Shown one piece after another: positions 520-40,000 of a stretch of DNA of 64,000 bases (the stretch's first letter is position 1; each line of letters starts with the position of its first letter). Source of the stretch: Bacteroidetes bacterium HGW-Bacteroidetes-8. GTDB taxonomy: Bacteria; Bacteroidota; Bacteroidia; Bacteroidales; UBA932. The translations under genes were made by a program, and so were the position numbers. Below the pieces are notes generated by a model. That model was not told the DNA's origin. It was given only the letters and a program-made list of their open reading frames with translations, and did not search any database. The DNA lies in assembly GCA_002840895.1 (NCBI GenBank), contig PHCZ01000006.1:238938-302937 (forward strand). The letters run 5' to 3'.

Positions 520-3375
520 ATGATAAAAATTCCACAAAGAATATTTCTAATAGTTGTTTTGCTAATCTGCACTATTTCAGCTATTACGGCTAGTAGTGCT
601 TCCGGCAAACTTGGTAAGGGTGAGCAATCTGAGGTTTCAAATAAAGAGGTTGTTCGTGGCGTTGTGCTGGACGAGAGGGGCAGGGGTGTTGCGGGGGTTG
701 TGGTGTCGGATGGGTTTGGTGTGTGCAAGAGTGATGCGGGTGGGCGGTTTTCGTTTGTGAGGGCGGAGCGGGCGCGGTTTGTGTTTATGAGTACGCCGGA
801 TGGTTATGAGCAGGTGGGGAGTTTCTTTTATCGCGTTGATGGTAAGGGGGGTGTTGGCAGTGTGGATGGTGTTGGGGATGGCATTGGGGATAGTTCCGGG
901 AATGGTTTTGGCGAAAGTGCAAGGTTCAGGAGTGGTGCAGATGAGTTGGTCTTTAGGGTGGTTAAGAGTGTGGCGAGAGATGCTAGGAGTGCGGCGGTGA
1001 GTTCGGAATTTCTGCATCTGGGTGATACTGAGGCGAGGATTCATAAGGATTGGGTGGATGTTCTTAAGGAGTATTTGGTTTATAACAGGCCTGCGTTTGT
1101 GCTTTTTAATGGGGATATCTGCTATGAGAATGGTCTTCGGTTTCACGCGCGGGAGCTCACATCCGGCAATCTTGGGGTGAGGGCTGTGTACACTTTGGGG
1201 AATCACGATTTGGTAGATGGTGCCTACGGCGAGGAGTTGTATGAGGAGTTGTTTGGTCCGGTCTGGTACTCTTTTAACAGTGGCGGAGTGCATTTTGTGA
1301 ATATACCTGTGCTACAGGGAGATAGAAAGCCATCTTATAGTGCAGATGATGTTTATTCGTGGCTGAAAAAGGATCTGGATGCAATACCTGAGGGTATGCC
1401 GGTTGTTTTGTTGGATCACCATTTTGTAGGTTACAGCGACGATTTCCACCTTAAGGGGGAGAGTGCCTCTGTAAATCTGTTGGATTATAATTTCAAAGCA
1501 TATCTGTATGCTCATTATCATATTAATTTGATAGAGAGATCTGCAAGGACGGGTGTTACAACCATTGCAACGATGTCTCCGAACAAGGGGGGAATTGATC
1601 ACACCCCATCTTCATTTAGGTCGATCAGGTTTGACCGCGAAGGGAATCTCGACTCGCAGATCCGCTACGCTTCGCTTAAAGGGCATATTGCAGCTACAAT
1701 CTTCCCGGCCAACAATTTTGAGAGAAGAGTATCTTCCAATACAAGTGCATCAGCAAATAAGGGAGCATCTGCAAACGAGAAAACAACTGCCCACGAGAAA
1801 GTGTCTGCAAATAACAGTTATGAGCTGATAGCCAATATCTATGATACGCGCACCGATGTCGAGGAGGCGACGGTAGAGTATAACGGGGCAGAGTATAATC
1901 TGCATAAAGTAAGTGAGTGGACCTGGCGGGCAACGCTTCCGGGCGGGGAGAGAGCATCCGGGGCAACTGTGTCGGGGGCAAGTGCGACCCGGGCAACTGT
2001 GTCGGGGGCAAGTGCGACCCGGGGAGCAGTGTCCGGAGCAACTGTGTCGGGGGCAAAAGCATCTGCAGTAGTGACGGCGAAATTTAAGAATGGAACAGTT
2101 GTGAAGGGGGTGGCGAGGGTGCCTGCAGATATCGGGGAGTTCACTCCGCGCAGGGAGGATGCGTTTGTGCCTCAAATTAAGTGGGTTGCCTCGTTGGGGA
2201 ACCATACGTTTATGACATCTCCACTGGTTTATGGAGATTTGGTGATATCTGCAACCTATGACGATAATGGTAAGGGTGGGAGTGCGATTCACGCTTTGCG
2301 CAAGGGGGATGGGTCGGTTGCCTGGAGCTTCCCTGTTGCTAATCCAATAAAGAACAATCTGGCTCTTTGGGAGGGGACTCTGCTTGGGTGCGATGTTCTT
2401 GGTAATTTGTATGCGATAGAGGCCTCTACCGGGCGGGTTGTATGGAGCAAGGCTCTGCGGGATAAGGAGTTGCATCCTGTTTACACACAGGGTGTAACTG
2501 TTCACAATGGAGTTGTCTATGCAGGTCACGGCCATTATCTTACAGCCCTTAAGGTCTTAACCGGAGAGGTTGTGTGGAAGAACACGGCTTGGCGGGGTGG
2601 TGTGTGTACCGTGGCCTCCCCTGTGGTGGAGCCGGAGTCCGGAGTTTTGCTTACTGCGGCTTACTGGACAGGGCGGTTTGCACACAACGCAGTTACGGGA
2701 GAGCTTTTGTGGGCAAAAAAGGATGATGATACCAGAATTGCAGATAACTCGCCGGTCTATTTTAAGGGGAGGTTTTTTTATGCGTCGCCCGGGTTTATTA
2801 TGGAGGTAGATCCATTGAGTGGCAATGAGTTGGTAAAGCATAAGATCAACTATACCATTAACAACAACTCTCGCCCGGTAGTGACCGACAAGCTTTTTAT
2901 TTTGGGGACTACAGATAAGGGGGTGGCTGCATTTGATCGGGAGAACGGATACAAAGAGCTCTGGAATTTCAAGACCAACCCTGGGATCATCTATACGGCG
3001 CCATATACCAAAGATTTTCAGATGACTGTAGAGAGCGGAGCGTTTCTGGACAGAGTTGCCATTAGCGGTGAGAGTCTCAGGAATGGCGGGGATATCTCTA
3101 AGAGCGGTTCGGTTGTGGAAGGTGTTGCCAGTTCCGGCGGGGATGGTGGGGTTGGCGGGGAACGTGGGGTTGCACCCGGGAGTGGGGTTGAGTATGAAGA
3201 GGTGCTCTACTTTGGGGCAAATGACGGGTATCTTTATAGTGTGAATGCACGCAGTGGGGTTTTCCGTTGGCGGATAAATCTCGGGGCTCCTGTTTTGGGA
3301 AACATCGTGGTTAGTGTCGGGGTTTTGTACGCCAGTGATTTTGCCGGGAATGTTTGGGCGGTCTCTTTAAAATAA
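520..3375 (+). CDS. Calcineurin-like metallophosphoesterase with C-terminal PQQ-like beta-propeller repeats
   Basis: HLGDTEARIH, NGDICYENG, GNHD and LLDHH motifs typical of metallophosphoesterases; C-terminal repeated VVWSKAL/GEVVWKN/GELLWAKK blades typical of PQQ-like repeats; N-terminal signal-like segment. Confidence 0.85.
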   Translation: MIKIPQRIFLIVVLLICTISAITASSASGKLGKGEQSEVSNKEVVRGVVLDERGRGVAGVVVSDGFGVCKSDAGGRFSFVRAERARFVFMSTPDGYEQVGSFFYRVDGKGGVGSVDGVGDGIGDSSGNGFGESARFRSGADELVFRVVKSVARDARSAAVSSEFLHLGDTEARIHKDWVDVLKEYLVYNRPAFVLFNGDICYENGLRFHARELTSGNLGVRAVYTLGNHDLVDGAYGEELYEELFGPVWYSFNSGGVHFVNIPVLQGDRKPSYSADDVYSWLKKDLDAIPEGMPVVLLDHHFVGYSDDFHLKGESASVNLLDYNFKAYLYAHYHINLIERSARTGVTTIATMSPNKGGIDHTPSSFRSIRFDREGNLDSQIRYASLKGHIAATIFPANNFERRVSSNTSASANKGASANEKTTAHEKVSANNSYELIANIYDTRTDVEEATVEYNGAEYNLHKVSEWTWRATLPGGERASGATVSGASATRATVSGASATRGAVSGATVSGAKASAVVTAKFKNGTVVKGVARVPADIGEFTPRREDAFVPQIKWVASLGNHTFMTSPLVYGDLVISATYDDNGKGGSAIHALRKGDGSVAWSFPVANPIKNNLALWEGTLLGCDVLGNLYAIEASTGRVVWSKALRDKELHPVYTQGVTVHNGVVYAGHGHYLTALKVLTGEVVWKNTAWRGGVCTVASPVVEPESGVLLTAAYWTGRFAHNAVTGELLWAKKDDDTRIADNSPVYFKGRFFYASPGFIMEVDPLSGNELVKHKINYTINNNSRPVVTDKLFILGTTDKGVAAFDRENGYKELWNFKTNPGIIYTAPYTKDFQMTVESGAFLDRVAISGESLRNGGDISKSGSVVEGVASSGGDGGVGGERGVAPGSGVEYEEVLYFGANDGYLYSVNARSGVFRWRINLGAPVLGNIVVSVGVLYASDFAGNVWAVSLK
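1747..1818 (+). repeat. In-frame 18-bp x4 degenerate tandem repeat (ASANKG/ASANEK/TTAHEK/VSANNS)
   Basis: Direct alignment of four 18-bp units within CDS 520-3375. Confidence 0.8.
1963..2067 (+). repeat. In-frame 15-bp x7 tandem repeat (ATVSG/ASATR units)
   Basis: gcaactgtgtcgggg / gcaagtgcgacccgg units repeated in phase with the reading frame. Confidence 0.9.
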
Positions 3376-3443
3376 TATAACTATGATTATAATAATTGTT
3401 ATATTAACGTAGAATTATAATCGTAACGATAATAACAAGCTAT

Positions 3444-3471
3444 GAAAATTCGGGGTGTGACCCTAATTTTC
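3444..3471. terminator. Hairpin GAAAATTcGGG...CCCtAATTTTC just upstream of prmC
   Basis: Inverted repeat read directly; A/T-rich outer stem could allow bidirectional termination. Confidence 0.45.
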
Positions 3472-3485
3472 AATTTTAGGTGGAT

Positions 3486-4658
3486 ATGGTTTATAAAGAG
3501 TATATTGAGAGGGTTGTGGAGATGGGGAGTCTTCTTTATGGGAAGGAGGAGGGGCGGGCGATAGCCGCAAGGCTATTGCAGCACTTTTGCGGGATAAGTT
3601 CATATGAGCATTTGGTGGAGCCCTATGGTGCAATTGCGCCCGAACATATTGGTGAACTCGAAAGTGCTGCGCAGCAGATTGCTGCCGCCCGCCCACTCCA
3701 GTACATTCTTGGTTACCAAGAGTTTCTTGGACTAAAAATCTCCGTCGAGGAGGGCGTCCTAATACCCCGCCCCGAAACCGAAGAGCTGGTCACCCAGGTC
3801 CTAAACCACATAGCCGCCCAACACCCCCAGCCGGCCGGTCTTAATTCCCACCCGGCAGCACTTGACCCCCCGACAGCTGGTCTTGATTCCCGCCCAGCCG
3901 GGCACTCTCGCCCCGTGGCCGGTCTTAATTCCCATTCAACTGGGCACTCTGGTCCCGCGGCCGGTCTTGATTCCCATTCAACTGGGAACTCTCGCCCCGT
4001 GGCCGGTCTTAATTCCCATTCACCTGGGCACTCTGGCCCCGTGGCCGGTCTTGATTTCCACCCGACAGCACTTGACTCCCAGACAGCCGGTCTTAATTCC
4101 CAGTCGACAACCCTCAGAATTCTTGACGCGGCCTGCGGGTCCGGATGCATTGCCGCTGCCCTGAAATACAATCTGCCTCAGGCACAAATCTTTGCCTGCG
4201 ACCTATCCCCCAAAGCTCTTGAAGTTACGGCACGCAACCTCTCTTCTTTGCACGACTCTTCATCTGCCCCCGATAGCTCATCTGCCCCAAATGTTTTTCA
4301 ATACGATTTGCTAAAATCTCCTGAGGGGTTTCCGCTAAATGAGCTGGATATAATTGTAAGCAATCCGCCCTATGTAATGGAGAGCGAGGCTTCAAAGATG
4401 AGAGCCAATGTGCTTGATTATGAACCGGCTATGGCGCTGTTTGTGCCGGATAATGATCCCCTTATCTTTTATCGTGCACTTGAGCGACTGGCATCTGCAA
4501 CACTAAAACCCAAAGGGGCAATCTTTATGGAGGTAAATGAGAGTCTTGCAGTTGAAACGGCCGCGATTTTCGAAGAGGCTGGTTACTCAGCGGTCGAGAT
4601 TAAACGCGATATTTTTGGTAAAGCCAGGATGGTAACTGGCAGACTTTTGTGTAATTAG
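3486..4658 (+). CDS. prmC: Peptide chain release factor N5-glutamine methyltransferase PrmC/HemK with a ~95-aa repeat insertion
   Basis: IPRPETEELV, LRILDAACGSGCIAAALK (motif I) and DIIVSNPPYV (NPPY motif). ATG at 3486 preferred over the in-frame GTG at 3480 used in the ORF track. Confidence 0.93.
   Translation: MVYKEYIERVVEMGSLLYGKEEGRAIAARLLQHFCGISSYEHLVEPYGAIAPEHIGELESAAQQIAAARPLQYILGYQEFLGLKISVEEGVLIPRPETEELVTQVLNHIAAQHPQPAGLNSHPAALDPPTAGLDSRPAGHSRPVAGLNSHSTGHSGPAAGLDSHSTGNSRPVAGLNSHSPGHSGPVAGLDFHPTALDSQTAGLNSQSTTLRILDAACGSGCIAAALKYNLPQAQIFACDLSPKALEVTARNLSSLHDSSSAPDSSSAPNVFQYDLLKSPEGFPLNELDIIVSNPPYVMESEASKMRANVLDYEPAMALFVPDNDPLIFYRALERLASATLKPKGAIFMEVNESLAVETAAIFEEAGYSAVEIKRDIFGKARMVTGRLLCN
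3829..4113 (+). repeat. In-frame 21-bp (heptad) / 42-bp tandem repeat inside prmC
   Basis: Heptads of type PVAGLNS/HSTGHSG repeat about 13 times; DNA unit ccggtcttaattcccattcaactgggcactctggtcccg. Confidence 0.9.
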
Positions 4659-4757
4659 CTGTTTATCTGCAATATAAAAAAGCCACTTATTTAAATTCCT
4701 TAAAATGAATTTTTTAAATGCCTTGTAATTAAAAAGTTTCACAAAACTCTGCCAGTT
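4634..4757. repeat. TIR-flanked palindromic intergenic element, copy A (124 bp)
   Basis: Left aactggcagacttttgtg (4634-4651) and right cacaaaactctgccagtt (4740-4757): 17/18 inverted match; left arm encodes the end of PrmC. Confidence 0.8.
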
Positions 4758-4770
4758 CAAATTTTTTTTA

Positions 4771-4778
4771 TACATTTG
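4771..4778 (+). promoter_or_regulatory. Putative -7 element TACATTTG upstream of the trp leader
   Basis: Matches the Bacteroidetes TAnnTTTG -7 consensus about 16 bp before the leader ATG. Confidence 0.5.
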
Positions 4779-4793
4779 CCCCAAGAAAAAACG

Positions 4794-4877
4794 ATGATAA
4801 AAAACCTTAACATACAACTATGGTGGTGGCACAGTTCGGTAAGATCTGTGAGCACGGCTATGTATGGAAGGGAGTAG
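4794..4877 (+). CDS. trp leader peptide MIKNLNIQLWWWHSSVRSVSTAMYGRE
   Basis: ATG 4794 to TAG 4875-4877; three consecutive TGG codons at 4821-4829, followed by alternative hairpins and a terminator upstream of trpB. Confidence 0.85.
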   Translation: MIKNLNIQLWWWHSSVRSVSTAMYGRE

Positions 4878-4947
4878 GTAAAGTGAATTAATTTAATTTA
4901 ACTGATATACGAAGGTCCGGCGCTCACGCTCCGGGCCTTTTTTTTTA
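4830..4947 (+). promoter_or_regulatory. Transcription attenuator (Bacteroid-trp-like): 1:2 CACAG/CTGTG, 2:3 GTGAGC/GCTCAC, 3:4 terminator
   Basis: CACAG 4830-4834 pairs with CTGTG 4846-4850; GTGAGC 4848-4853 can instead pair with GCTCAC 4922-4927, which lies in the terminator hairpin. Confidence 0.8.
4914..4947 (+). terminator. Intrinsic terminator of the trp leader
   Basis: ggtccggcgctcacgctccgggcc hairpin (one G-U pair, one mismatch) followed by a T-tract. Confidence 0.85.
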
Positions 4948-4999
4948 TCTGCACCCGAACTCACTAAAAAACTTTAAATAATTTCTAAAAAATCAAAAG

Positions 5000-6286
5000 A
5001 TGAAAACAACCAAAAAATTCCAGCTCGCAGAGAGCGAAATCCCGAGGCAGTGGTATAATATTAAGGCAGATATGCCAAACCAGCCTCGTCCGTTATTGAA
5101 TCCGCAAACCAGAGAAGCGCTTAAGCCCGAAGAGATGGAGGGGCTTTTTGCGAAGGAGCTGGTTGCGCAGGAGTTCTCTGCCGAGCGATGGATTGATATT
5201 CCTGAGGAGGTTGTGGAGCTTTACAAAATCTACCGCCCGACCCCGCTTGTGAGGGCTTACAAGTTGGAGAAGGAGCTCGATACACCGGCGAAGATCTACT
5301 TTAAGAATGAGAGTGTCAGCCCGGTGGGGTCTCACAAACTGAACACTGCAATTGCTCAGGCCTATTACAATAGCAAGCAGGGGATTATGAGGCTGACTAC
5401 CGAAACGGGGGCCGGCCAGTGGGGATCTGCAATGAGTGTCGCCTGCGGATATTTTGGGATTGAGCTTGTTGTTTTTATGGTAAAGCAGAGTTACGAGCAG
5501 AAGCCATACAGGAAGATTGTGATCAACACATACGGGGGGAAAGTTCACGCCTCACCATCCGCTTTGACAAATTACGGTAGGAGTGTTTTGGAGAGCGACC
5601 CGCTGTGCAGGGGAAGTCTTGGGATGGCTATCTCTGAGGCGGTTGAGATGGCTGTGACCACTCCCGACACACGTTACTCTCTGGGCAGCGTCCTCAACCA
5701 CGTACTTTTGCATCAGACAATTATAGGTCTTGAGGCTGAGAAGCAGATGGAGATGGCCGGCGACTACCCGACCAAGGTGATTGCCTGTTTCGGTGGGGGG
5801 TCAAACTTCTCCGGAATCTCCTTCCCGTTCCTCAGGCACAAGTTTACAGAGGGGCGTGCTGTTGAGCTGATTGCTGCCGAGCCTGCCGCCTGCCCAAAAC
5901 TTACTAAGGGTGTTCTTGAATACGACTTTGGCGACACTGCCGGAATGACCCCGCTTATTCCTATGTACACACTCGGCCACGACTTCCAGCCCGAACAGAT
6001 TCACGCGGCCGGCCTCCGCTACCACGGTGGTGGCCAGATCGTGAGCCAGTTAAAGGCAGATGGTTTTGTTAACTCTTGTGCAATTGAGCAGCAGGAGACA
6101 TTTGCCGCCGGCCGGCTGTTCGCTAAAACTGAGGGGATAATCCCTGCCCCGGAATCCTGCCACGCCATTGCCGCAACCATCCGTGAAGCCATTAAAGCCA
6201 AAGAGGCCGGCCGCAGCGAAGTGCTGCTCTTCAACCTCTCCGGCCACGGCCTGCTGGACATGGCGGCCTATGAGAATGGTCTTTGA
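5000..6286 (+). CDS. trpB: Tryptophan synthase beta subunit, TrpB2 type
   Basis: RPTPLVRAYKLEKEL, NESVSPVGSHKLNTA (PLP lysine), ETGAGQWGSA, CFGGGSNFSG; ~428 aa with N-terminal extension typical of TrpB2; no adjacent trpA. Confidence 0.93.
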   Translation: MKTTKKFQLAESEIPRQWYNIKADMPNQPRPLLNPQTREALKPEEMEGLFAKELVAQEFSAERWIDIPEEVVELYKIYRPTPLVRAYKLEKELDTPAKIYFKNESVSPVGSHKLNTAIAQAYYNSKQGIMRLTTETGAGQWGSAMSVACGYFGIELVVFMVKQSYEQKPYRKIVINTYGGKVHASPSALTNYGRSVLESDPLCRGSLGMAISEAVEMAVTTPDTRYSLGSVLNHVLLHQTIIGLEAEKQMEMAGDYPTKVIACFGGGSNFSGISFPFLRHKFTEGRAVELIAAEPAACPKLTKGVLEYDFGDTAGMTPLIPMYTLGHDFQPEQIHAAGLRYHGGGQIVSQLKADGFVNSCAIEQQETFAAGRLFAKTEGIIPAPESCHAIAATIREAIKAKEAGRSEVLLFNLSGHGLLDMAAYENGL

Positions 6287-7787: not shown

Positions 7788-8900
7788 ATGCAACAATATT
7801 TAGGTGAATTAATTGCAATCGCGGTTGCGGTCTCCTGGACTTTTACGGCGCTCTTTTTCGAGTTTGCCGGAAACAGAATCGGATCTCTGGCAGTGAATCT
7901 GCTCAGACTCTTCTTTGCCTTCTTCCTGCTGGGAGCTCTGCTCTATTTTACTACCGGCTCTTTTCTGCCGGCTGCTGCAGATGGTAAAACCTGGCTGTGG
8001 ATGTCGCTCTCCGGTTTGGTTGGTTTCGTCTTTGGCGATTTGTGCCTTTTCTACTCTTACATTCTCATAACTGCCCGTTTTTCACAGCTTTTAATGACCC
8101 TTGCACCTCCCTTTGCCGCCTTTTTCGGGTGGATGATGCTTGACGAAAAGCTCTCTCCGATGGGCTTTCTTGGTATGGCAGTCACACTCACCGGAATAGC
8201 CATCTCCATACTCAAAAAAGGCGCCAAAGCGCAACCAAGCGGTACGCAATCAGGCGGTTCGCAACCAAACGGTTCGCTATCAAACGGTTCGCTACCAAGC
8301 AGTTCTCTGTCAAGCGGTTCGCAACCAAACGGCAGTGAGCAGATAAAGGATGATACACTGGTGGGCGGGGTTAGCAGTATGTCGGTGGTTACAGATCCGG
8401 GAAGCTCCGCAAAGAGGGGGATACATCTGCATTTACCTTTGAAGGGGGTACTGCTCGGGCTGGGAGGGGCTCTGGGACAGGGGCTTGGAATTGTATTAAG
8501 CAAGATTGGGATGAATCACTACGCCGTTGCTTCCAAAGGTTCGCAGGTTGCAGATTTTATTCCATTTGCTGCCACGCAGATGCGGATTATCACCGGAGTC
8601 ATTGGTTTTGCGCTCATTATCTTCCTCACCCGCAGAGCATCGGTTCTCACGAAAGGGGTTAAGGACAGAAAGGCTGTGAGTGCAGTATTTATGGGTGCCA
8701 TCTTTGGCCCGTTCATAGGAGTTTCGCTTTCGCTGATGGCTGTTCAGCACACCAATACAGCAGTTGCATCAACAATAATGGCCACCACCCCAATCATCAT
8801 ACTTATTCCCTATGTGCTCCTCTACAAGAAGAAGATAAGCTTCATAGAAGTTCTGGGAGCAATCCTCAGCGTTGTGGGTGTTTCACTGTTTTTCTTGTAG
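7788..8900 (+). CDS. EamA/DMT-family transporter with repeat-expanded central loop
   Basis: Multiple TM segments; two EamA-like halves (LGELIAIAVAVSWTFTALFFEFAG; GALGQGLGIVLSK) separated by a low-complexity loop. Confidence 0.88.
   Translation: MQQYLGELIAIAVAVSWTFTALFFEFAGNRIGSLAVNLLRLFFAFFLLGALLYFTTGSFLPAAADGKTWLWMSLSGLVGFVFGDLCLFYSYILITARFSQLLMTLAPPFAAFFGWMMLDEKLSPMGFLGMAVTLTGIAISILKKGAKAQPSGTQSGGSQPNGSLSNGSLPSSSLSSGSQPNGSEQIKDDTLVGGVSSMSVVTDPGSSAKRGIHLHLPLKGVLLGLGGALGQGLGIVLSKIGMNHYAVASKGSQVADFIPFAATQMRIITGVIGFALIIFLTRRASVLTKGVKDRKAVSAVFMGAIFGPFIGVSLSLMAVQHTNTAVASTIMATTPIIILIPYVLLYKKKISFIEVLGAILSVVGVSLFFL
8231..8335 (+). repeat. In-frame 15-bp x7 tandem repeat (QPNGS-type units)
   Basis: gcaaccaaacggttc units, seven consecutive, in phase with the frame. 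Confidence 0.92.
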
Positions 8901-8921: not shown

Positions 8922-10310
8922 CTATTTAAACAACTTTCTCACCAGTTCCGGGATATCCTGGACGGTGATGACCTCAATTGAGTGGGATTTGAGGGCTTTG
9001 GCAGATGCCGCGGTTGATGGCTTGCCGAATGTGGATATGTAGATCTTTTCGAAGCCGAGTTTTTGGGCTTCGGCGATGCGGCGCTCGACCTGGGCGACGG
9101 GGCGGATTTCACCGCTAAGGCCCACTTCTGCGGCGAAGCAGATGCGCTGGGAGATTGCAACGTCAAAGTTGGAGGAGAGAATGGCGCATACGACGGCCAT
9201 ATCGCAAGCCGGGTCGGAGACCTTGAGCCCGCCGGCCATATTGAGGAAGACATCTTTGGCAGAGAGGTGAAATCCGGCCCGCTTCTCAAGAACTGCGAGC
9301 AGCATATTCATCCGCCTTACATCAAAACCGGTGGCCGACCTTTGGGGGGTGCCGTAGGCGGCTGTGCTCACCAGTGCCTGAGTCTCAATGAGGAATGGGC
9401 GCGAGCCGTCCAGCATTGCTGCCACGGCAATTCCGGAGAGATTCTCTTTGTGCATCGGGATGAGCATCTCAGATGGGTTACTCACCTCGCGAAGCCCGGT
9501 GTTGATCATCTCGAAGATGGCCAGTTCGGCTGTGGAACCAAACCTGTTTTTGATGCTGCGTAAAATTCTGTAGGAGTGTCTGGTATCCCCTTCGAACTGG
9601 AGGACTACATCTACAATGTGCTCCAGAATCTTTGGCCCGGCAATCATACCATCTTTGGTGATGTGGCCAATCACAATTATTGGGGTGTTGGTCTCTTTGG
9701 CAAATTTGAGCAGGGCGGCGGCCGATTCGCGAACCTGGGTCACAGAGCCGGGTGAGCTCTCGACAACCTGTGAGTAGATGGTCTGGATTGAGTCTATAAT
9801 TATGAGCTGTGGCCGGGCTTCGTTTGCCCTCTCAAGGATGTTCTCCAAAAGGGTTTCGCAAAGAATATAGCAGTTGTCGTGTATGCCGCCCAGCCTCTGA
9901 GCACGCAGCTTGATCTGCCTGGCACTCTCCTCTCCCGAAACGTAGAGCGTAACTAAATCAGGACAATGAAGCGGAATCTGCAAAGCCAATGTAGATTTAC
10001 CAATGCCCGGCTCACCCCCGATTAACACCATAGAACCGGGAACCAGCCCGCCTCCCAGAATCCTGTCCAGCTCGTCGTTGCCCAGAGAAATCCTATGCTC
10101 ATCGGAATAACTTATCTCAGACAACAACTGCGGCTTTTGACTCCTCTCGGAGAGGAAGCTCATACCTCTTGCCCCACCACCTCCGGTATCTTTGGAGATA
10201 ATCTCCTCCTGCAGCGTATTCCACTCCCCGCAAGCAGGACATCTGCCCAGCCATTTGGCACTCTCATTGCCGCAAGATGTACAGAACCAGCCCTTTTTAA
10301 CCTTTGCCAT
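8922..10310 (-). CDS. radA: DNA repair protein RadA
   Basis: N-terminal zinc finger CTSCGNESAKWLGRCPACGEWN; Walker A GEPGIGKST; KNRFGS motif. Confidence 0.96.
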   Translation of the reverse strand: MAKVKKGWFCTSCGNESAKWLGRCPACGEWNTLQEEIISKDTGGGGARGMSFLSERSQKPQLLSEISYSDEHRISLGNDELDRILGGGLVPGSMVLIGGEPGIGKSTLALQIPLHCPDLVTLYVSGEESARQIKLRAQRLGGIHDNCYILCETLLENILERANEARPQLIIIDSIQTIYSQVVESSPGSVTQVRESAAALLKFAKETNTPIIVIGHITKDGMIAGPKILEHIVDVVLQFEGDTRHSYRILRSIKNRFGSTAELAIFEMINTGLREVSNPSEMLIPMHKENLSGIAVAAMLDGSRPFLIETQALVSTAAYGTPQRSATGFDVRRMNMLLAVLEKRAGFHLSAKDVFLNMAGGLKVSDPACDMAVVCAILSSNFDVAISQRICFAAEVGLSGEIRPVAQVERRIAEAQKLGFEKIYISTFGKPSTAASAKALKSHSIEVITVQDIPELVRKLFK

Positions 10311-10403: not shown

Positions 10404-12176
10404 ATGAAAAAACTCTATGCAACCCTTTTGCTGATGGCTCTTCTATCTGCAGCAACTCTCTCTGCCCAGGACAATGATGTCATTGTCAAAAAAACTGTAG
10501 ATTATGCCAAAGAGGTTCAAAAGCTGTGGCAGATTCCGGGAATGGCCATCTCCATTGTTAAGGATGGCAAGATGATTTGGTCCGGCGGATTGGGCGTGAA
10601 AGAGATGTGTGCAAGCTGCGGAGACAGTAGTGGAAAAACCTGTGGCGACAATAGCGGGAAAAGTTGCGGCAAAAATTGTGGCGACAGTTGTGGCGACAGT
10701 TGTGGCGAAAAGAGTACCAAGCAGGTGGACGCAAATACTCTGTTCCAGATTGGCTCTGTGTCAAAATCCTTTACCGCGGCGGTGATGGCCTCGCTTGTAG
10801 ATGAGGGGAAGGTTAAGTGGGAAGATACAGTAAAAAATATTCTGCCCGATTTCAAAATGTACGACAAGTGGGTGGAGAGTAATCTCCAGGTTAAGGATAT
10901 TATGACGCACCACTCGGGGCTTCAGGGCCAGCTTGGAACCTATATTCCGAATATGGGTTACGGGAGGGAGGATATCTGGAATATGCTACCGTTGCTTAAG
11001 CCAAAGTACAGCCTGAGAGGCTCATACGAGTATAATAATATCACGTTTATAATTGCTTCAAAGATAATTGAGAAGCTTACAGGCAAAAGCTGGGAAGATA
11101 ATGTTAGAGAGCGTATCTTCAACCCTCTTGGGATGACCTCGAGCAGGGTTGTGGGAGAGGAGTTCAAGGCTGCCCAAAATGTGTCAACACCTCACGAATT
11201 TGTCTACAAAAAGGGGAGGGCACTCTCAGATACCACCTGGGTAGATTCGGTGGCTGTAAATCCGCTTTATGGCGATGAGCAGGCGCTTCACTGGCTTACC
11301 GTTGTTGGGCCGGCGGGCTCTATCAGCTCCACCGCAAACGATATGGCAAAGTACACCCTCTTCCACCTTAACAAGGGGTTTGCAGATGGTAAACAGGTTA
11401 TATCAAAGGAGCAGGCGAACTATCTGCGTAAAGGGCATACAATCACCTCGCAGGATTCGTCGAGAATAACTCTCTATGGTCACTGCTGGTTTATTGAGCA
11501 GAACAGCCGTTACAGGGTGATATTCCATACGGGAACCACCTGGGGCTTCACCACACTTTGCGCATACTTCCCGGAGATGGATCTTGGGATAACTATTCTT
11601 GTTAATTCGGAGGCTCCGGCATTCCCGCGTTATGCAATAATGAGAAGGCTGATAGATCTTTACAAAGGGTTCCCGGATAAGGATTACAATAAACTGTATT
11701 ACGAGGAGTGGCTTGCATCTGCCCGCAAAGGGGTGAGAGCAGCCGACAAAAAAGAGGCAGAGGTTGTAAAAGAGGCTTCGCCCGATATCAAGCTACTCAC
11801 CGGCACTTACGACAAAGGGGCTCTCTTCGGGAAGGCCGTTGTTACACTTGAGAAGAGCTCCGGGAGCGATGCGGGCAACGCCGCCAAAGCGCAGCAGGCG
11901 CCAAACTCGGCAGTAGATCTCAAATCTCCGGTGGCGCAGCAGGGGTCAAAATCTGCAGTAGATCACAACTCTGCAGAAAATCTCTACATAACAGTTGGAC
12001 CTATGGGTTGGAAGAGCAAACTCACTCACAAGAACGGCAATGAGTTCACCTTCCGGATGGATGGGAATGAGTTCAAAGTGAAGTTTGTGAAGGATATCAA
12101 GAGCGGGAAGTTTAACGGGCTGGATATAAATTTTGGCTACACCGAGAATTTTGGCGTGTGGAGCAAATTGAACTAA
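10404..12176 (+). CDS. Serine hydrolase (class C beta-lactamase-like) with C-terminal DUF3471-like domain
   Basis: IGSVSKSFTA (SxxK), YEYNN (YxN), signal peptide MKKLYATLLLMALLSAATLSAQ; start chosen at ATG 10404. Confidence 0.88.
   Translation: MKKLYATLLLMALLSAATLSAQDNDVIVKKTVDYAKEVQKLWQIPGMAISIVKDGKMIWSGGLGVKEMCASCGDSSGKTCGDNSGKSCGKNCGDSCGDSCGEKSTKQVDANTLFQIGSVSKSFTAAVMASLVDEGKVKWEDTVKNILPDFKMYDKWVESNLQVKDIMTHHSGLQGQLGTYIPNMGYGREDIWNMLPLLKPKYSLRGSYEYNNITFIIASKIIEKLTGKSWEDNVRERIFNPLGMTSSRVVGEEFKAAQNVSTPHEFVYKKGRALSDTTWVDSVAVNPLYGDEQALHWLTVVGPAGSISSTANDMAKYTLFHLNKGFADGKQVISKEQANYLRKGHTITSQDSSRITLYGHCWFIEQNSRYRVIFHTGTTWGFTTLCAYFPEMDLGITILVNSEAPAFPRYAIMRRLIDLYKGFPDKDYNKLYYEEWLASARKGVRAADKKEAEVVKEASPDIKLLTGTYDKGALFGKAVVTLEKSSGSDAGNAAKAQQAPNSAVDLKSPVAQQGSKSAVDHNSAENLYITVGPMGWKSKLTHKNGNEFTFRMDGNEFKVKFVKDIKSGKFNGLDINFGYTENFGVWSKLN
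10606..10713 (+). repeat. In-frame Cys/Gly-rich 12-bp-based repeat (CGDS-type units)
   Basis: CASCGDSSGKTCGDNSGKSCGKNCGDSCGDSCGEK; tgtggcgacagt unit repeated. Confidence 0.85.
11889..11978 (+). repeat. In-frame 45-bp x2 repeat (AQQAPNSAVDLKSPV / AQQGSKSAVDHNSAE)
   Basis: Direct alignment of adjacent 45-bp units. Confidence 0.8.
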
Positions 12177-12293
12177 CAGTATTTTGTGAAACAATCTAAT
12201 TATGAGATATTTGAAAAATCTATTTTTGGGATTTAGTAAAATCGGAAATTTTATATACCTGTTATACTGTCAGTTACACAAAACACTGTTAGT
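12172..12293. repeat. TIR-flanked palindromic intergenic element, copy C (122 bp)
   Basis: Left actaacagtattttgtg (12172-12188), right cacaaaacactgttagt (12277-12293): 16/17 inverted match; left TIR overlaps the upstream stop codon. Confidence 0.85.
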
Positions 12294-12340: not shown

Positions 12341-13867
12341 ATGAATGACAAAATGACTAAAAAAAGCCGTTTTGCCCGAGTGTTAGACACTATTGAGGTT
12401 GTTGGAAATCGACTGCCACATCCGGCAACCCTCTTTTTAATGATGGCAGCTCTTGTGGCTCTGCTATCCTGGTGGGCATCTGCAGCCGGTCTGCAGGCAA
12501 CACATCCGGCCACAGGTGAGATTGTGAGTGTGAAGAATCTGCTTAATGCAGATGGAATACGTTGGATCTATACCAATGTGGAGCACAATTTCGTGAAGTT
12601 TCCCCCGCTGGGTCTGGTTTTGGTGATAATGATAGGTATTGGAGTTGCCGAGGGTTCGGGGCTCTTTACCGTTCTGGTTCGCCAGCTTGTGCTTGGTGCT
12701 CCTAAGAAGTTAATTACTGCAGCGATTATTATTGCAGGTATCTTCTCTCACCTGGCATCCGAGGTTGGGTATGTGATTCTAATCCCATTGGGAGCAATGA
12801 TTTTCCACGCGTTAGGGCGTCACCCGATGGCAGGTTTTGCTGCTGCCTTTGCGGGTGTAAGTGCCGGTTTCGGTTCCAACTTCCTGATTGGTTCGGTGGA
12901 TCCTATTTTGGCCGGGCTTTCAACATCTGCAGCGCAGATAATTGACCCCGAAATGAACATCAACCCTATGGTAAACTACTTCTTTATGTTTGCCAGTGCG
13001 GTGATGATTACAATTGTGGGTACCTGGATAACGGAGAAGATTATTGAACCGAGGCTTGGTGTCTATGGAGGGACAGAAAAACCGCTTGAAATTGAGCAGC
13101 TTACTAAGGTTGAGAAAAAGGGTTTGCGTTGGGCAGGGTATGGAACCCTGATTTTTATTGCTTTAATGGCGTGGACAATTATTCCGGAAGATGGTCTGCT
13201 GCGTGACCCGGAGACTGGTGGAATCCTTAGATCTCCTTTCTTTTCCGGAATAGTGGTGGGGCTGCTGCTGCTCTTCTTTATCCCGGGTCTTATTTACGGA
13301 ATTATTGTAAAAACAATCAAGAACGATAAGGATGTTGTAAAGCATATGACCCATTCGATGAAGGGTCTGGGTGGATACATTGTCCTGGTATTTTTTGCTG
13401 CCCAGTTTATCTATTGGTTCAACTACTCAAATCTTGGTCTGGTGCTGGCAATTGATGGCGCTCAGTTCCTGAGCCATATTGGTTTTACCGGAATTCCTCT
13501 TATCCTTGCCTTCTTGTTATTATCTGCTTTTCTCAATATGTTTATGGGGAGCGCATCTGCAAAATGGGCCATTATGGCACCGGTATTTATTCCGATGTTT
13601 ATGATTTTGGGCTATCACCCTGGGTTCACTCAGGCTGCCTTTAGGATTGGAGACTCTGTAACCAATGTAATTACCCCGATGATGAGCTACTTTGCGCTCA
13701 TTGTCACCTATGCGCAACGCTACGACGAGAAGAACGGAATCGGCACCATAATTTCACTGATGATCCCTTACACAGTAATCTTTATGATTATCTGGGCAAT
13801 TCTCATAACAGTGTGGATGCTACTCGGAATTCCTGTAGGATTTGACGGGCCTGTTTATCTGCCTTAA
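12341..13867 (+). CDS. AbgT family transporter
   Basis: VLDTIEVVGNRLPHPATLFLMMAALVALLSW and GSASAKWAIMAPVFIPMFMILGYHPGFTQAAFRIGDSVTNVITPMM motifs of the AbgT family. Confidence 0.92.
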   Translation: MNDKMTKKSRFARVLDTIEVVGNRLPHPATLFLMMAALVALLSWWASAAGLQATHPATGEIVSVKNLLNADGIRWIYTNVEHNFVKFPPLGLVLVIMIGIGVAEGSGLFTVLVRQLVLGAPKKLITAAIIIAGIFSHLASEVGYVILIPLGAMIFHALGRHPMAGFAAAFAGVSAGFGSNFLIGSVDPILAGLSTSAAQIIDPEMNINPMVNYFFMFASAVMITIVGTWITEKIIEPRLGVYGGTEKPLEIEQLTKVEKKGLRWAGYGTLIFIALMAWTIIPEDGLLRDPETGGILRSPFFSGIVVGLLLLFFIPGLIYGIIVKTIKNDKDVVKHMTHSMKGLGGYIVLVFFAAQFIYWFNYSNLGLVLAIDGAQFLSHIGFTGIPLILAFLLLSAFLNMFMGSASAKWAIMAPVFIPMFMILGYHPGFTQAAFRIGDSVTNVITPMMSYFALIVTYAQRYDEKNGIGTIISLMIPYTVIFMIIWAILITVWMLLGIPVGFDGPVYLP

Positions 13868-13868
13868 A

Positions 13869-13973
13869 CGCCCGGGTTACCTGCTTAGAGCGCCCGACCT
13901 ACTGTTTTGAGTGCCCGGCCTACTGTTTTGAGTGCCCGGTTTACTGTTTTGAGTGCCTGGTTTACCTGCATTC
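13869..13973. repeat. 21-bp x5 tandem repeat immediately after the AbgT stop codon
   Basis: Units gtgcccggcctactgttttga at 13869, 13890, 13911, 13932 and 13953. Confidence 0.95.
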
Positions 13974-33821: not shown

Positions 33822-34601
33822 ATGAAAAAATTTTTATCAATCGCACTTCTGCTTCTTGTATCTGCCTCAATTTTTGCGCAGACAGCCAAAAAACCGATTA
33901 TAGGCATCTCCTCTACCTGGGGAGAGGGCACCTCAACCTCGGCGCCTCTTACCTATGTTGAATCTGTTATTCGGGCAGGAGGGGTTCCTCTGGTTTTGCC
34001 GATAACGCTGGATCCTGCAATTATGGCTCGTATGTTGGATTGTGTAGATGCGGTTATTATGACGGGGGGTGAAGATATTGACCCTCTCAAATGGTTTGGT
34101 GAGGAGCCGGTTCCGGGAATGGGAGAGATTGTTCCGGCCAGAGATTCGTTTGATATTGCACTTATAAGAATGGCTGTCGGCAAAGGTTTGCCGCTGCTTG
34201 GTATCTGCAGAGGCCATCAGTTGCTCAATGTTGCTTTTGGCGGGTCGCTTTATCAGGATATCCCTTCTCAGGTTAAGGGTTCAAATGTGAAACACAGTCA
34301 AAAAGCTCCGCGATTCTACGGAACACATACAATCAACATCGAGAAGGGCTCGCTGCTCAACAAGCAGATAGGTCTTGAGAAAGTTGCCGTAAACTCATAC
34401 CACCATCAGGCCGTTAAAGATGTGGCCCCAGGATATAAAGTAACTGCCCGCTCGGTAGACGGAATTGTTGAGGCAATGGAGAAGATAGGCAGCACCAAAG
34501 TGTTTAGTGTCCAATTTCACCCGGAAGGATTCACCGCCAGTAATATAGACACATTCCTCGGTATCTTCCAGCACCTCGTAAAAGAGGCCGGCAAAAAGTA
34601 G
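33822..34601 (+). CDS. Gamma-glutamyl-gamma-aminobutyrate hydrolase family protein (peptidase C26)
   Basis: PLLGICRGHQLLNVAFGG nucleophile elbow, VNSYHHQAV, FSVQFHPEG. Confidence 0.92.
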   Translation: MKKFLSIALLLLVSASIFAQTAKKPIIGISSTWGEGTSTSAPLTYVESVIRAGGVPLVLPITLDPAIMARMLDCVDAVIMTGGEDIDPLKWFGEEPVPGMGEIVPARDSFDIALIRMAVGKGLPLLGICRGHQLLNVAFGGSLYQDIPSQVKGSNVKHSQKAPRFYGTHTINIEKGSLLNKQIGLEKVAVNSYHHQAVKDVAPGYKVTARSVDGIVEAMEKIGSTKVFSVQFHPEGFTASNIDTFLGIFQHLVKEAGKK

Positions 34602-34671
34602 CTCCGCTGCGCGCATATGGTCTGCTTCGCAGGAGTTTACCGCTGCGCGGGAAAACAGAACCGGGCTTTGG

Positions 34672-34783
34672 CAGTGTTTGATGAAAGCTATTGACAAACA
34701 ATATGTTGCAAAACCCAGTTTTCCAAATATGGAAAACTGGGTTTTGCATTTAATTGATATATTGAAAGTTGCATCAAACACTG
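34672..34783. repeat. TIR-flanked palindromic element, copy D, with 19-bp perfect central hairpin
   Basis: CAGTGTTTGATG (34672-34683) / CATCAAACACTG (34772-34783); central TGCAAAACCCAGTTTTCCA-aata-TGGAAAACTGGGTTTTGCA 34707-34748. Confidence 0.9.
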
Positions 34784-35487
34784 GCAGAGCGCATTTTGGC
34801 AAAGGAGAGGATGAGCCCCAATACTATGGAGAGGGATGCTGCGAAGATCACTTTATAGGTGTCCGGCAGCAAAAAAGTGATGGTGTGGGCGGGAATCCAG
34901 AATAGTGGGATGGTTTTGCCCACAACAAATTTCAAAAATCCGCTCCAGTCGATCACCGAGATGGCTCCCGAGATTGTCATTTTTTGTCCGGCAGAATTCT
35001 TGCCGGCATTATTGCCGGAAGAACGTGCATCGATCCAGGTGTCGGTTATGCGGTGGGCGGCCATAAATACCGGGGCAAAGGTGAGGTTCATAATTGCAGA
35101 TATATAGAGGGCTTTGAGCAGTTTTGCCAGAAACCCGCCGGCCATACCAGAACCGCCGGCCAAGCCTCCTGTCCAGAGCAGGCCTTTGTTGATAGCGCCG
35201 GAGACGCCATCTGCATAAACGGAGAACATCATCACAATTAAAACTCCCAAAACACCCCAGATGAACATTTTGGGGAGCATCCCGGGAACCATCTGCCATC
35301 TTTTAAAAACGAGTCTGGTGGCCAGGAATTCGCCCATTGTTGAGAGGATTGCAAATTTTATGAATCCCATAATGTAGGGGTGGGAAGATGTTGCTGAGAC
35401 AAATAGTTGATGGGTGGAGGGGATAATTAAAAATGCAGCAAATGCCGCAAGGATCATTACCCATATTGCTGTTCCGTATTTTGCCAT
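34774..35487 (-). CDS. Integral membrane protein of unknown function
   Basis: Several hydrophobic segments; start set to MAKYGTAIW at 35487 because the upstream ORF extension is not protein-like. Confidence 0.65.
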   Translation of the reverse strand: MAKYGTAIWVMILAAFAAFLIIPSTHQLFVSATSSHPYIMGFIKFAILSTMGEFLATRLVFKRWQMVPGMLPKMFIWGVLGVLIVMMFSVYADGVSGAINKGLLWTGGLAGGSGMAGGFLAKLLKALYISAIMNLTFAPVFMAAHRITDTWIDARSSGNNAGKNSAGQKMTISGAISVIDWSGFLKFVVGKTIPLFWIPAHTITFLLPDTYKVIFAASLSIVLGLILSFAKMRSASV

Positions 35488-35583
35488 TTTTGTTTTATCT
35501 TTATAAGTTGTGTGTGCAAAGATATGCGTATTGTTAAATTTTGCATAGGGCGGATTAAATAAAATTTTTAGATTTGCATCATC

Positions 35584-36150
35584 GTGAGAGACAGTATTTC
35601 GTTTATCAATGGGGTTAATTCTAAAAATAAGAGCTCCTGGGAGGAGCTTTACAGCTACTTCTATGCTGCTTTGTGTAACTACTCGTCCAAGATAACCAAA
35701 GACAAACACACATCGGAAGATATTGTCCAGAGTATGTTTATCAGGTTGTGGGATTCCAATGTGATCTTTAATGACCTCTGTGGCCTAACTGCTTATCTCT
35801 ATAAATCTGTCTACTCAAGGTCGCTTAACTTTTTAAGAGACAATAAAAAGGGTTTGCCTATTGAGCCGGATGCCGTTAAAAACGAGTTATCCCTTGAGGA
35901 GAGATATATAGAAATGGCATTGGAGGAGGAGATTATCTCCCGCTTCTATAAGGCTTTGGAGGAGATGTCACCCCAGCAGAGGGAGATTATTCTTATGACT
36001 CTCAGAGGGGATAGGGTAGATGATATTTCGCGGAAGTTGAGCATCAGCCCAAATACTGTAAAGACGCAGAAGAAGCGGGCCTACACATTTTTGCGAGGCA
36101 AGCTGGGAGCCAGTTTTGTAGTTGTGAAATTCCTTCTCTTTACTTGTTAG
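35584..36150 (+). CDS. ECF RNA polymerase sigma-70 factor
   Basis: Sigma-70 region 2 (DIVQSMFIRLWDSN) and region 4 (EEMSPQQREIILMTLRGDRVDDISRKLSISPNTVKTQKKRA); GTG start. Confidence 0.88.
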   Translation: MRDSISFINGVNSKNKSSWEELYSYFYAALCNYSSKITKDKHTSEDIVQSMFIRLWDSNVIFNDLCGLTAYLYKSVYSRSLNFLRDNKKGLPIEPDAVKNELSLEERYIEMALEEEIISRFYKALEEMSPQQREIILMTLRGDRVDDISRKLSISPNTVKTQKKRAYTFLRGKLGASFVVVKFLLFTC

Positions 36151-36889
36151 AGATTGCTGCACTCGCCTTTTCAAACGATGTCTCTTTACGCAGATAGTCG
36201 CCTCCAAGGATCTCGGGGGTGAATGAAAGTGGTGGTCGGTGAAGTGAGGCAGATGGTATATTTTCCGATGCAGATAGGTGAATTTCGGATACTCCGGTCT
36301 GCGCAATAATGCCGGCGATGTTTGATTCATTAATACCGGATCCGGGCATTATGATTACTCTGCCCGCGGCAATTTCGTTCATCTTCTTAAGAGTAGGAAT
36401 AGCCTCAAAAGCTGTTTGGGCACCTCCGGAGGTGAGCACCCTGTGGGCACCAAGGGCAATCACAGACTCCAATGATTGGAAAATATCTCTGGAAACATCA
36501 ATAGCCCTGTGAAATGTTACTGATAAAGAGTGTTTTGAGGCAGCCTCTATGAGGGGCCTGCAAAATTCCATATCTACATTGCCATATTTGTCCAGTGCCC
36601 CAATCACAACACCCGCTACCTTCAGCTGACCGCACATCTCAATATCCCGTATCATCACCTCCATATCTTCCCGACTATAGAGAAAATCCCCTTGACGAGG
36701 CCTTATAAGAACATTTATATCTATTGAGATCTCCTTCCTGGCCAGAGATATTACACCATATGAGGGGGTTACTCCACCAAGAGAGAGCACGCTGCAAAGC
36801 TCAACTCTTTGAGCACCTGCTCGCTCGGCCACTTTGCAACTCTCAAGAGAGCCTGCACAAATTTCTATTTTAATATTTTTCGAGTTCAT
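36140..36889 (-). CDS. cutC: Copper homeostasis protein CutC
   Basis: IEICAGSLESCKVAERAGAQRVELCS, VLIRPRQGDFLYS, MPGSGINESN. Confidence 0.95.
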   Translation of the reverse strand: MNSKNIKIEICAGSLESCKVAERAGAQRVELCSVLSLGGVTPSYGVISLARKEISIDINVLIRPRQGDFLYSREDMEVMIRDIEMCGQLKVAGVVIGALDKYGNVDMEFCRPLIEAASKHSLSVTFHRAIDVSRDIFQSLESVIALGAHRVLTSGGAQTAFEAIPTLKKMNEIAAGRVIIMPGSGINESNIAGIIAQTGVSEIHLSASENIPSASLHRPPLSFTPEILGGDYLRKETSFEKASAAISNK

Positions 36890-37002
36890 TTTACGCCCGG
36901 GATAATCACCCATATATTTTGTGAACCTATTCACATCCAAATTTAAAAAAAATTTCTAAGTTTGATAATTAATTGCAAATCTGCTTAAAACCCGCGCACA
37001 CT

Positions 37003-40000
37003 ATGTTGAAAAGAACTGTTTATGCACTTCTGCTTATGTGCATAGTAACCATTGTCGTAAAGTTATTTATCTCCCCGGCGGAGCCTCCTGTAATCTCAAA
37101 CCCGGCTTATATGGAGATGGTTGAAGAGAATTTTGAGATGAAAAAAGTGCTCATCGGCAATGACTCCCTCTTTACAATCTTTGAGAAATGTAAAACAAAA
37201 AGGGAGAGAGAGGCGCTTATGTTCCTCTATGCCTATATGCCAATTGGCGATATTGCCGACTACAATCCCGAGCTGTTTCTTGAAGGGGTAAGGCATTCGT
37301 TTAAGGTGAGAAGGGAGATGCCTTGGGGCAAGAGTATTCCGGAGGGTATCTTCCGGCATTTTGTTCTGCCGCTAAGGGCAAACAATGAGTCTTTGGACTC
37401 GTCGCGAGTTCTTTTCTACCAAGAGCTAAAGGATAGAGTAGAGGATCTTACGTTGTATGATGCTGTTATTGAGGTAAACAGATGGTGTCAGGAGAAGGTG
37501 GTTTATACTCCGTCAGATGAAAGAACCTCATCTCCGCTCGCAACGGTGAAGACAGCTTATGGCAGATGTGGTGAGGAGTCGGTATTTACCGTTGCTGCAA
37601 TGCGTTCGGTGGGGATTCCTGCCAGACAGGTCTACACTCCGCGCTGGGCTCATACAGATGACAACCACGCCTGGGTTGAGGTGTGGGTAGACGGGAAGTG
37701 GTACTACCTGGGTGCCTGCGAGCCTGAGCCAAAGCTAAATGTTGCCTGGTTTAGTGCAACTGCGCAAAGGGGTTTGCTGATGCATAGCAGGGTGTTTGGC
37801 TATTATGGTGGAGAAGAGGATATTATCAAAAGGACAAAAGTCTTTACCGAGATAAATGTAACTGCCAACTATGCCCCTGTGGCAAAGGTTAAGATACGGG
37901 TTACCGATACCGCCGGCAATCCGGTTGAGGGGACAGAGGTAGATTACAAAATTTACAACTATGCAGAGTATTACAGCGCAATCACCGCTGTTACCGGTGC
38001 AGATGGTATTTCACAAGCCACTCTTGGTAAGGGTGATATAATTGTCTGGGCGCACAAAAACGGGAAATTCGGATTCAAAAAAGTGACCCCTGGCGGGACA
38101 AATTCCGGGTCAGCTGCCGGGGCAAATTCCGACTCCGCGCAGGTGGTTCAAATCGTTCTGGACAGAGCTGAGGGGGATGTTTTTGCAGCAGATTTGGATA
38201 TTGTCCCGCCGGCAGAGGGAAAGGCAGATGTCAATATTACTCAGCAGGAGCGGGAGGAGAACAACAGACGAATTGCCTTGGGTGATTCGTTGAGAAAGGG
38301 CTACACCACAACATTTGCAGACAGTGCTTCAATTGCAGCGCTGATTGACGAACTCGAGAAAAAGGGGAGAGTTGTTCCAAAGGAGCGGGTAAAGAGATAT
38401 CTGCTCTCATCGCGCGGAAACCACAAAGAGATTGCAAAATTTCTGGAGTGGCTGCCTCAGGAGAGTTTTGAAACAGGGCTCGATATGCTTGATGTGATTA
38501 CCGAAAAAGATTTACGTGACACCCCTTCAAAAGTACTGGAGAGTCACATCAGAATTATTTTGGAGCAGGGCTATTCCCGGAAACTCTCCGAGCAGAACTC
38601 TTCCGGAAATACCGCCGGCTTGAACTCTTCACGGAATTATCCCGGCTTGAACACTTCCGGAAATACCGCCGGCTTGAACTCTTCACGGAATTATCCCGGC
38701 TTGAACACTTCTGGAAGTACCGCCGGCTTGAACTCTTCCGATGACTCCGCCGGCGAGAGTGAAATATTTAAGAGGTATCTGCTTAACCCGAGAATTGGCA
38801 AAGAGCCTCTTGGGTGCTGGAGGGAGTTCCTCTATAAAGAACTTGCCGGGAGAGGGACCGTAACTAACCCTCAGGCAAACTTAGAGAATAACTCGCAGGC
38901 AAAATTTGTCAATAACCCGCAGGCCATAATAGAGTTTTGTCGCAAAATCAAACCGGCTTCAAAACACAATCCGCAAAATATCCCGATAACTCCGGTGGGA
39001 GTTTATAGACTGATGGCGGCAGAGAGGGCATCTGCAGAGGGTCTCTTTATTGCAATCTGCAGGACATTCGGTATCCCGGCGAGATTCGAGGAGGTGACCG
39101 GAAAGGTCCAGTACTATTATGGAGGCGCGTGGGTTGAGGCAGATATCTTTGAAAAAGGAGACGGAGAATTATCCCTTAAAATTCAGGCAACTGATGGAAA
39201 TCAAACATCTGCAACGGAGATTAAGCCAAATACAGGTCGGCTGATGGTCAACTACAGGGGCAAGGTGGTTGATGATCCTAAGTTTGAGAGCCACTTTACC
39301 ATTGCCAAAATTGCAGATGGTATTATTAATACGCTTAATTTCAGAAATAAAGAGGGGTTTGAAGGGACAAACACTCTGCAAGGAACCTTTAAAACTCCTG
39401 TTAATTTGGAGCAGGGATATTACGCCCTGACCAGCGGAACACGGATGGCAAGCGGAAAGGTTCTTAGCAGAATATCTCTTTTTAAAATTGAGGCCGGCAA
39501 AACAACTAATGTCGAACTTGTGATGAGAGACGACCAGCAGGATTTGAGGGTAATTGGATCTCTCAATCCCGAAGCCAGGTTCTTCAACAACAGTGCGGCA
39601 AAAGAGCAGTCAATTCTTGAGTGCACCGGAAGAGGCTTCTTTGTGCTTGTCTTCCTGAAGTCTAACCACGAACCAAGCACTCACGCCATTAGGGATATCC
39701 TTAAAAATTCAGATGAGTTCGGCCGGTTAGGCAGATCTGTAATTCTACTCTTTAGAGAGAGTAAACAGCTTGAAGATATTGCTGCTGTGCGGGATATATC
39801 AGATAATCTGCCTAAGAACTTTGTGATGGGTGTAGATTCCGGCAGCAAGATATTGTTGGAGGCATCTGCCTCATTAAAGCTTGGAGATAATCCCGATATG
39901 CCTTTGATTGTGATTGCAGATACTTTCGGCAGAATTGTCTGGTACACGAAAGGGTATAATATCGGAACCGGAGGTCAGACACTAAATGCTTTTGCCAGAA

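Follow-up and report, generated by a model that had tools for sequence, protein, structure and literature searches.

Coding tandem repeats that keep the reading frame have, in general, long been known in bacteria. The in-frame units of coding VNTRs and minisatellites, which serve in MLVA typing and occur at contingency loci, vary between relatives and are usually scattered or located in surface genes, while the heptanucleotide STRR repeats of cyanobacteria form dispersed families. The Borgs of Methanoperedens are linear extrachromosomal elements with near-perfect, A-rich tandem repeats along their whole length, while such repeats are rare in the host's chromosome; their units are divisible by three in ORFs, compared with only 14–38% in intergenic DNA (Schoelmerich et al. 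2023, PMC9879509). Each Borg array has a locus-unique unit derived from local sequence, evolves rapidly and independently, and encodes a disordered peptide repeat (PMC9879509).

We analyzed a 64-kb stretch of the chromosome of an uncultured Bacteroidales bacterium (the window; G000:C8:238938-302937) from a genome of 2.9 Mb in 22 contigs, together with the arc of the chromosome that contains it. Comparison with Borg repeats revealed that the arrays found here likewise have units divisible by three in ORFs but not in non-coding DNA (48/51 and 12/33, respectively, in the arc), that these units are locus-unique and locally derived, with single-copy seeds in the sister genome and a single own-genome match for the one array searched, and that they evolve rapidly and independently and yield disordered peptides. 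In contrast to Borg repeats, the copies are diverged (65–96% match) rather than near-perfect, the arrays are GC-richer (0.51–0.54, against 0.41 for the genome) rather than A-enriched, and they lie among housekeeping genes of a bacterial chromosome, mostly in one arc, rather than on a linear extrachromosomal element. The present arrays work like Borg repeats but are not Borg repeats. As in VNTRs and minisatellites, units of about 10–100 bp stand head to tail and copy number varies among relatives (6.9, 4.8, and 3.6 in EamA); unlike usual VNTRs, they occupy a contiguous arc of ordinary genes and intergenic DNA in two species. The relative G017 has a 7-bp array (TAGGCAA), in PrmC as well as between RadA and EamA, that resembles STRR repeats, whereas the arrays of the window are mutually unrelated and have other unit lengths. 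In the open-access full texts searched, including those on STRR repeats and in-frame bacterial minisatellites, no precedent was found for a species-conserved regional confinement uncoupled from substitutions.

Arrays and inserts in the window

An earlier note on this DNA had described tandem arrays in five unrelated proteins. Tandem Repeats Finder (TRF) confirmed multi-copy arrays in all five, and the loops that carry them are missing from relatives. The hosts were identified by Pfam as a calcineurin-like phosphoesterase with a PQQ propeller (MPE), PrmC, EamA, a beta-lactamase-fold hydrolase, and a transglutaminase-core protein. The note's 18-bp units (1741-1812) and 45 bp x2 repeat (11892-11981) were seen only in translation, and several features lay beyond its account: three intergenic arrays (37-312, 12187-12243, and 13855-13965), the insert of 35134-35169, and a stop-codon array at 40003-40063. 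The features are as follows.

37..312, no strand: intergenic array of 74 bp x3.7, with a unit not divisible by 3; TRF
841..918, plus strand: MPE Gly/Asp-rich insert, largely missing from the sister species HGW-5; alignments
1741..1812, plus strand: MPE loop of diverged 18-bp units (SAN-type); translation, below TRF score
1957..2056, plus strand: array in an MPE loop, 15 bp x6.7, fitted better by 30 bp x2.7; TRF
3136..3172, plus strand: MPE C-terminal loop array, 18 bp x2.1; TRF
3834..4112 (TRF 3879-4102), plus strand: PrmC loop 1, roughly 13 heptads of 21 bp, with two or four heptads (42 and 84 bp) as the best periods; TRF and alignments
4257..4292, plus strand: PrmC loop 2, SSSAPD x2, expanded in G008, G009, and G016; alignments
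8230..8332, plus strand: EamA inter-helix loop array, 15 bp x6.9 (30 bp x3.4); TRF
8991..9026, minus strand: RadA C-terminal loop GKPSTAASAKAL, unexpanded in the window, 24 bp x3.4 in the sister species; alignments
10616..10712, plus strand: serine hydrolase (beta-lactamase fold) array, CGDS-type units of 12/24/36 bp; TRF
11892..11981, plus strand: serine hydrolase C-terminal insert, 45 bp x2; translation, below TRF score
12187..12243, no strand: intergenic array, 24 bp x2.4; TRF
13855..13965, no strand: intergenic array between AbgT and UxuA, 21 bp x4.5; TRF
35134..35169, minus strand: membrane protein Gly/Ala insert GGLAGGSGMAGG, in part missing from HGW-5; alignments
38595..38740, plus strand: transglutaminase-core protein array, 27 bp x5.4 (54 bp x2.7, 96%); TRF
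38865..38924, plus strand: second transglutaminase array, 24 bp x2.5; TRF
40003..40063, plus strand: array spanning the transglutaminase stop codon, 24 bp x2.5; TRF

In agreement with the note, every unit in the coding sequences of the five proteins is a multiple of three. Multi-copy arrays in as many as five proteins of a single window greatly exceed the chance expectation, since codon-shuffled ORFs of the 2.0-Mb own-genome sample gave only 5–14 arrays in total. The coding arrays of the window match at 65–96% in TRF and are not near-perfect copies. The period that scores best in the five proteins' main arrays is frequently two or more times the basic unit (15 to 30, 21 to 42 and 84, 12 to 24 and 36, and 27 to 54 bp), a footprint that would be expected from repeated rounds of duplication. 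The intergenic array at 37..312 is GC-rich and has a higher-order period of 149 bp, with an internal GCCCGCGGG stretch in most of its 74-bp units. A search of the own genome with the DNA of one array returned a single match and no second copy.

Expanded loops in related genomes

The nearest named relatives are the sister species HGW-Bacteroidetes-5 (HGW-5; L003 = G016) and a Bacteroidales MAG (L002 = G008). Orthologue alignment revealed that the same loops are expanded in these two closest species, with different copy numbers or units. Among the EamA sequences of the genus that were compared, the tandem version occurs only in G000, G008, and G016, with 6.9, 4.8, and 3.6 copies, respectively. 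The EamA proteins of relatives at about 66–71% identity (L004–L007) have short loops and no comparable arrays; L004 and L005 carry merely a 2-copy 15-bp stretch elsewhere in the gene, and no tandem stretch was found in L006 or L007. In the AlphaFold model of EamA, residues 146–218 form an unstructured stretch between helices (mean pLDDT of 41, low confidence). At the MPE loop 1741..1812, both L002 and L003 carry 18/36 bp arrays, and a 42-aa insert around the array at 3136..3172 is missing in HGW-5.

PrmC loop 1 lies between the PETEELV helix and the SAM-binding ILDAACGSG strand, where solved HemK/PrmC structures have a linker of about nine residues. Its units are unrelated across genomes: 42/84 bp in G000, 7 bp x13.6 in G017, and a pair of 15-bp arrays in G004. 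In loop 2, G009 has an array of 18 bp x3.5, while the inserts of G008 and G016 are longer. The AlphaFold model of PrmC has pLDDT >90 for most of the core and <50 at residues 118–208 and 262–267, which are the two repeat stretches. The loop-1 repeat of G017 (L194 1410-1505) belongs to a heptamer family (TAGGCAA / GGCATTG) that also forms a 14 bp x26.6 array between RadA and EamA (L119 919-1494), followed by an adjoining 8 bp x24 array.

Further conserved biosynthetic enzymes on contig C8 of the own genome carry in-frame repeat inserts of this kind, namely LeuC (324400), PanC (345898), and DHFR-like (70074) and HemW-like (157485) proteins, the last two named from sequence inspection rather than a family search. 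The LeuC insert, located elsewhere in the arc described below, is comparable to that of PrmC and stands where a solved homologue has about seven residues. Alignments indicated that the RadA GKPSTxA, serine hydrolase CGDS, and LPGGQS repeats grew from sequence that is single-copy in the other species. Such growth from local seeds goes in both directions, with inserts gained in the own species and in HGW-5. The earlier note had listed RadA as lacking a repeat, which holds for the window's genome but not for the sister species, whose RadA has a 24-bp repeat. Its view of the expansion as local, recurrent, and frame-filtered rather than due to one mobile repeat is borne out: units differ per locus and match local sequence, and comparable arrays are absent from more distant orthologues. 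Non-coding DNA behaves similarly at the AbgT-UxuA spot, where the 21-bp array (x4.5) of the own genome is replaced in HGW-5 by an unrelated array of 25 bp x2.8. The nearby AbgT-like transporter (window 12341-13867) has 99.6% protein and 92.7% DNA identity to HGW-5, and its neighbours mostly 59–95% protein identity; these values may reflect either unusually strong conservation or recent exchange.

Clustering in one chromosomal arc

The hot arc comprises C8:120-374 kb of the own genome, running from about 120 kb to the end of C8 and containing the entire window, and the collinear 1.72–2.08 Mb of HGW-5. It was noticed first in the own C8 and then tested on the collinear HGW-5 arc. The sample read covers 2.0 of the own genome's 2.9 Mb and, for HGW-5, 0.8 of 2.8 Mb (the collinear 1.6–2.0 Mb and 20-kb tiles elsewhere). 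One pipeline was employed for ORFs and arrays, with ORFs called by a simple hexamer scorer, and the main counts include arrays of at least 2.3 copies. At this threshold, the own genome has 23 coding arrays in 265 kb of CDS inside the arc and 4 in 1,266 kb outside, and HGW-5 has 15 in 280 kb inside and 0 in 453 kb outside. In HGW-5, 20 of 21 in-frame coding arrays lie at 1.72–2.08 Mb. Those of the own genome are crowded on C8 and three small contigs (C7, C14, and C21), which were added to the hot set after the data had been seen, and are few on C11, C17, and C20; C8 alone gives 14 in-frame arrays in 234 kb against 4 in 1,333 kb. Three of the four own exceptions (C11:311k, C11:365k, and C17:47k) look like ordinary low-complexity proteins: one has a coiled coil, and the others have tails rich in Arg/Glu and in Gly. 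On its right side the arc has no sharp boundary, with the HGW-5 tile at 2.15 Mb being cold while hot patches of the own contigs C14 and C21 map together on contig C2 of HGW-5.

The earlier note had inferred a lineage-specific process and named rarity of repeats elsewhere in the genome as a refuting result. In a genome-wide form this process fails by that criterion, because coding arrays are rare outside the arc: C11, C17, and C20 together (1.33 Mb) yielded 13 coding arrays, near the background of 5–14 obtained from the codon-shuffled whole 2.0 Mb. The process is regional, and the region is common to the sister species. Of 157 hot orthologue pairs, 9 have arrays in both genomes, 5 in the own genome only, and 2 in HGW-5 only; among 321 cold pairs, the own-only and HGW-5-only cases number 3 and 1. 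Non-coding DNA of the arc is enriched 4–5-fold as well, with 1.00 versus 0.19 arrays per non-coding kb in the own genome (p = 2e-6) and 0.61 versus 0.15 in HGW-5 (p = 0.007). The arc holds housekeeping genes (prmC, trpB, radA, leuC, panC, and pgk) and lies inside a 2.18-Mb contig in HGW-5. About 7 kb past the right end of the window, CRISPR-like arrays (own C8:309706-315138; direct repeat CCTTTAATCGAACCTTTTAGGAATTGAAAC, period of about 65 bp, several blocks) were observed and left out of the repeat counts.

Inside the arc, unit length is divisible by three in 48/51 coding arrays (94%) and 12/33 non-coding arrays (36%; Fisher p = 1e-8), as the note's distinction between coding and non-coding DNA had predicted; for all non-CDS units, the value is 25%. 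Per 1000 substitutions, alignments of orthologues from the own genome and HGW-5 revealed 7.7 in-frame indels of 4 aa or longer in the arc and 1.0 outside (40 and 8 events; p = 9e-10), about 7.5 times as many. The gene-level contrast (21/157 arc genes and 8/222 outside; p = 6e-4) is weaker because several indels share a gene. Point divergence is not raised in the arc, at 8.3 versus 9.1 per 100 aa for amino acids and 0.475 versus 0.553 for fourfold sites. The encoded peptides are enriched in P, S, Q, A, and G and depleted in F, Y, W, M, and I. GC content is 0.51–0.54 in arrays (genome 0.41), and at fourfold sites 0.39–0.40 in the arc and 0.33–0.34 outside. Fourfold-site GC and the number of arrays are correlated (Spearman 0.24 for the own genome, 0.48 for HGW-5). 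The strand-corrected GC skew of the arc is among the strongest of the stretches read. Arrays showed no enrichment above background at convergent-gene junctions and no preference for strand or within-gene position, and a search for a DNA motif marking the arc gave no clear signal, with GC-rich hexamers and GGCCGGCC enriched as compositional effects within genes.

Origin of the hot arc and its meaning

The explanation that we favor, and hold to be probable, is a regional tandem-duplication process that acts on all DNA and is filtered by reading frame and loop tolerance. In the arc, short stretches (mostly 12–60 bp) of whatever sequence is present would frequently be duplicated in tandem; a first duplication would provide the seed, and later rounds would duplicate dimers and larger multiples. 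In coding DNA, the survivors would be frame-keeping duplications in tolerant loops or tails, giving disordered Pro/Ser/Ala/Gly/Gln-rich peptide repeats, while in intergenic DNA all unit lengths would survive. A local DNA-copying or repair process rather than protein selection is suggested because the same arc is hot in the sister species and most of the sampled chromosome is not. The two are further separated by the enriched non-coding arrays, their unconstrained unit lengths, and indels raised without divergence. We infer that the primary cause is mutational, through replication slippage, template switching, or break repair where the chromosome is regionally stressed or prone to recombination, and that the majority of inserts are near-neutral. 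The combination of higher GC and more minisatellites would be in line with recombination or break repair, and strong skew with prolonged single-strandedness, both being suggestions only.

A more specific form of this explanation, a replication-position effect in which the arc lies in a replichore sector or fork-stalling region with frequent slippage, is possible, and we give it about one chance in three. In its favor, strand-corrected GC skew switches sign beside the arc, at mnmG, and reaches its maximum within the arc, where fourfold-site GC is also raised and synonymous divergence reduced; in the closed relative G010, the EamA/PrmC block stands opposite dnaA. However, the indications disagree: the left flank looks origin-like by its skew, by mnmG, and by low synonymous divergence, while the orientations of rpoBC, rpsL, dnaK, recA, and gyrB suggest forks entering from the other side, and just one side of the skew switch is hot. 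A dif site and DnaA-box clusters, sought to place the origin and terminus, were not found. The gene dnaA lies within 20 kb of a rluD-like gene in the closed relatives G010 and G011, but in the own genome and HGW-5 the two genes are on separate contigs (comparison coordinates below); one of them was therefore probably relocated by a rearrangement in this lineage.

G000:C6:53808, own genome: dnaA / rluD-like comparison
G016:C2:46213, HGW-5: dnaA / rluD-like comparison
G010:C1:1632350, closed relative: dnaA / rluD-like comparison
G011:C1:717107, closed relative: dnaA / rluD-like comparison

It is unlikely that the arrays are adaptive repeat proteins whose loop length is tuned by selection (for surface variation, linkers, or condensates) over a uniform duplication rate. 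The disordered loops that hold the arrays, the repeated expansion of the PrmC loop, and a between-unit dN/dS below 1 (0.44–0.69) speak for such tuning, and this last value may leave room for some selection on the peptide. The hosts, however, are unrelated cytosolic and membrane enzymes that are chromosomal neighbours (PrmC, LeuC, PanC, RadA in HGW-5, and EamA), and arrays are absent from most of the ordinary genes on C11, C17, and C20. The phenotypic tuning raised by the earlier note finds no support because the non-coding DNA of the arc is enriched too. Relaxed selection, under which duplications would arise everywhere and arc genes tolerate more of them, is largely refuted and stands as a slim chance: arrays do sit in dispensable loops and some host genes are lineage-specific, but amino-acid substitution is no higher in the arc (8.3 versus 9.1 per 100 aa) and non-coding arrays are likewise enriched. 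A MAG assembly artefact is very improbable. The HGW-5 and G008 records are titled MAGs, the window's genome is in 22 contigs, and short-read assembly mishandles repeats; yet the frame is kept in three independent assemblies (G000, G016, and G008), with different units in the same loops and intact flanking domains. Insertion of a mobile or diversity-generating repeat element, which recurrence at many loci might suggest, is refuted for the arrays examined by units that differ per locus, match local flanks, and share no ends, and by the one array that found no second copy in the whole own genome.

Bacterial mutation rates vary modestly along the chromosome. We see an even chance that the arc, several hundred kb long, is heritable and conserved across species, with tandem-duplication indels several-fold commoner and point mutation not, and that it keeps adding disordered loops to housekeeping proteins, acting as an indel mutator of one chromosomal domain that is independent of the rate of point mutation. 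In-frame loop repeats, which look like a pattern at the level of proteins, can result from a process at the DNA level combined with a frame filter, and Borg-like repeats are placed on an ordinary bacterial chromosome. If true, a conserved arc in which tandem duplications are decoupled from substitutions would offer a natural setting for the study of local DNA duplication and of the origin of disordered loops in enzymes.
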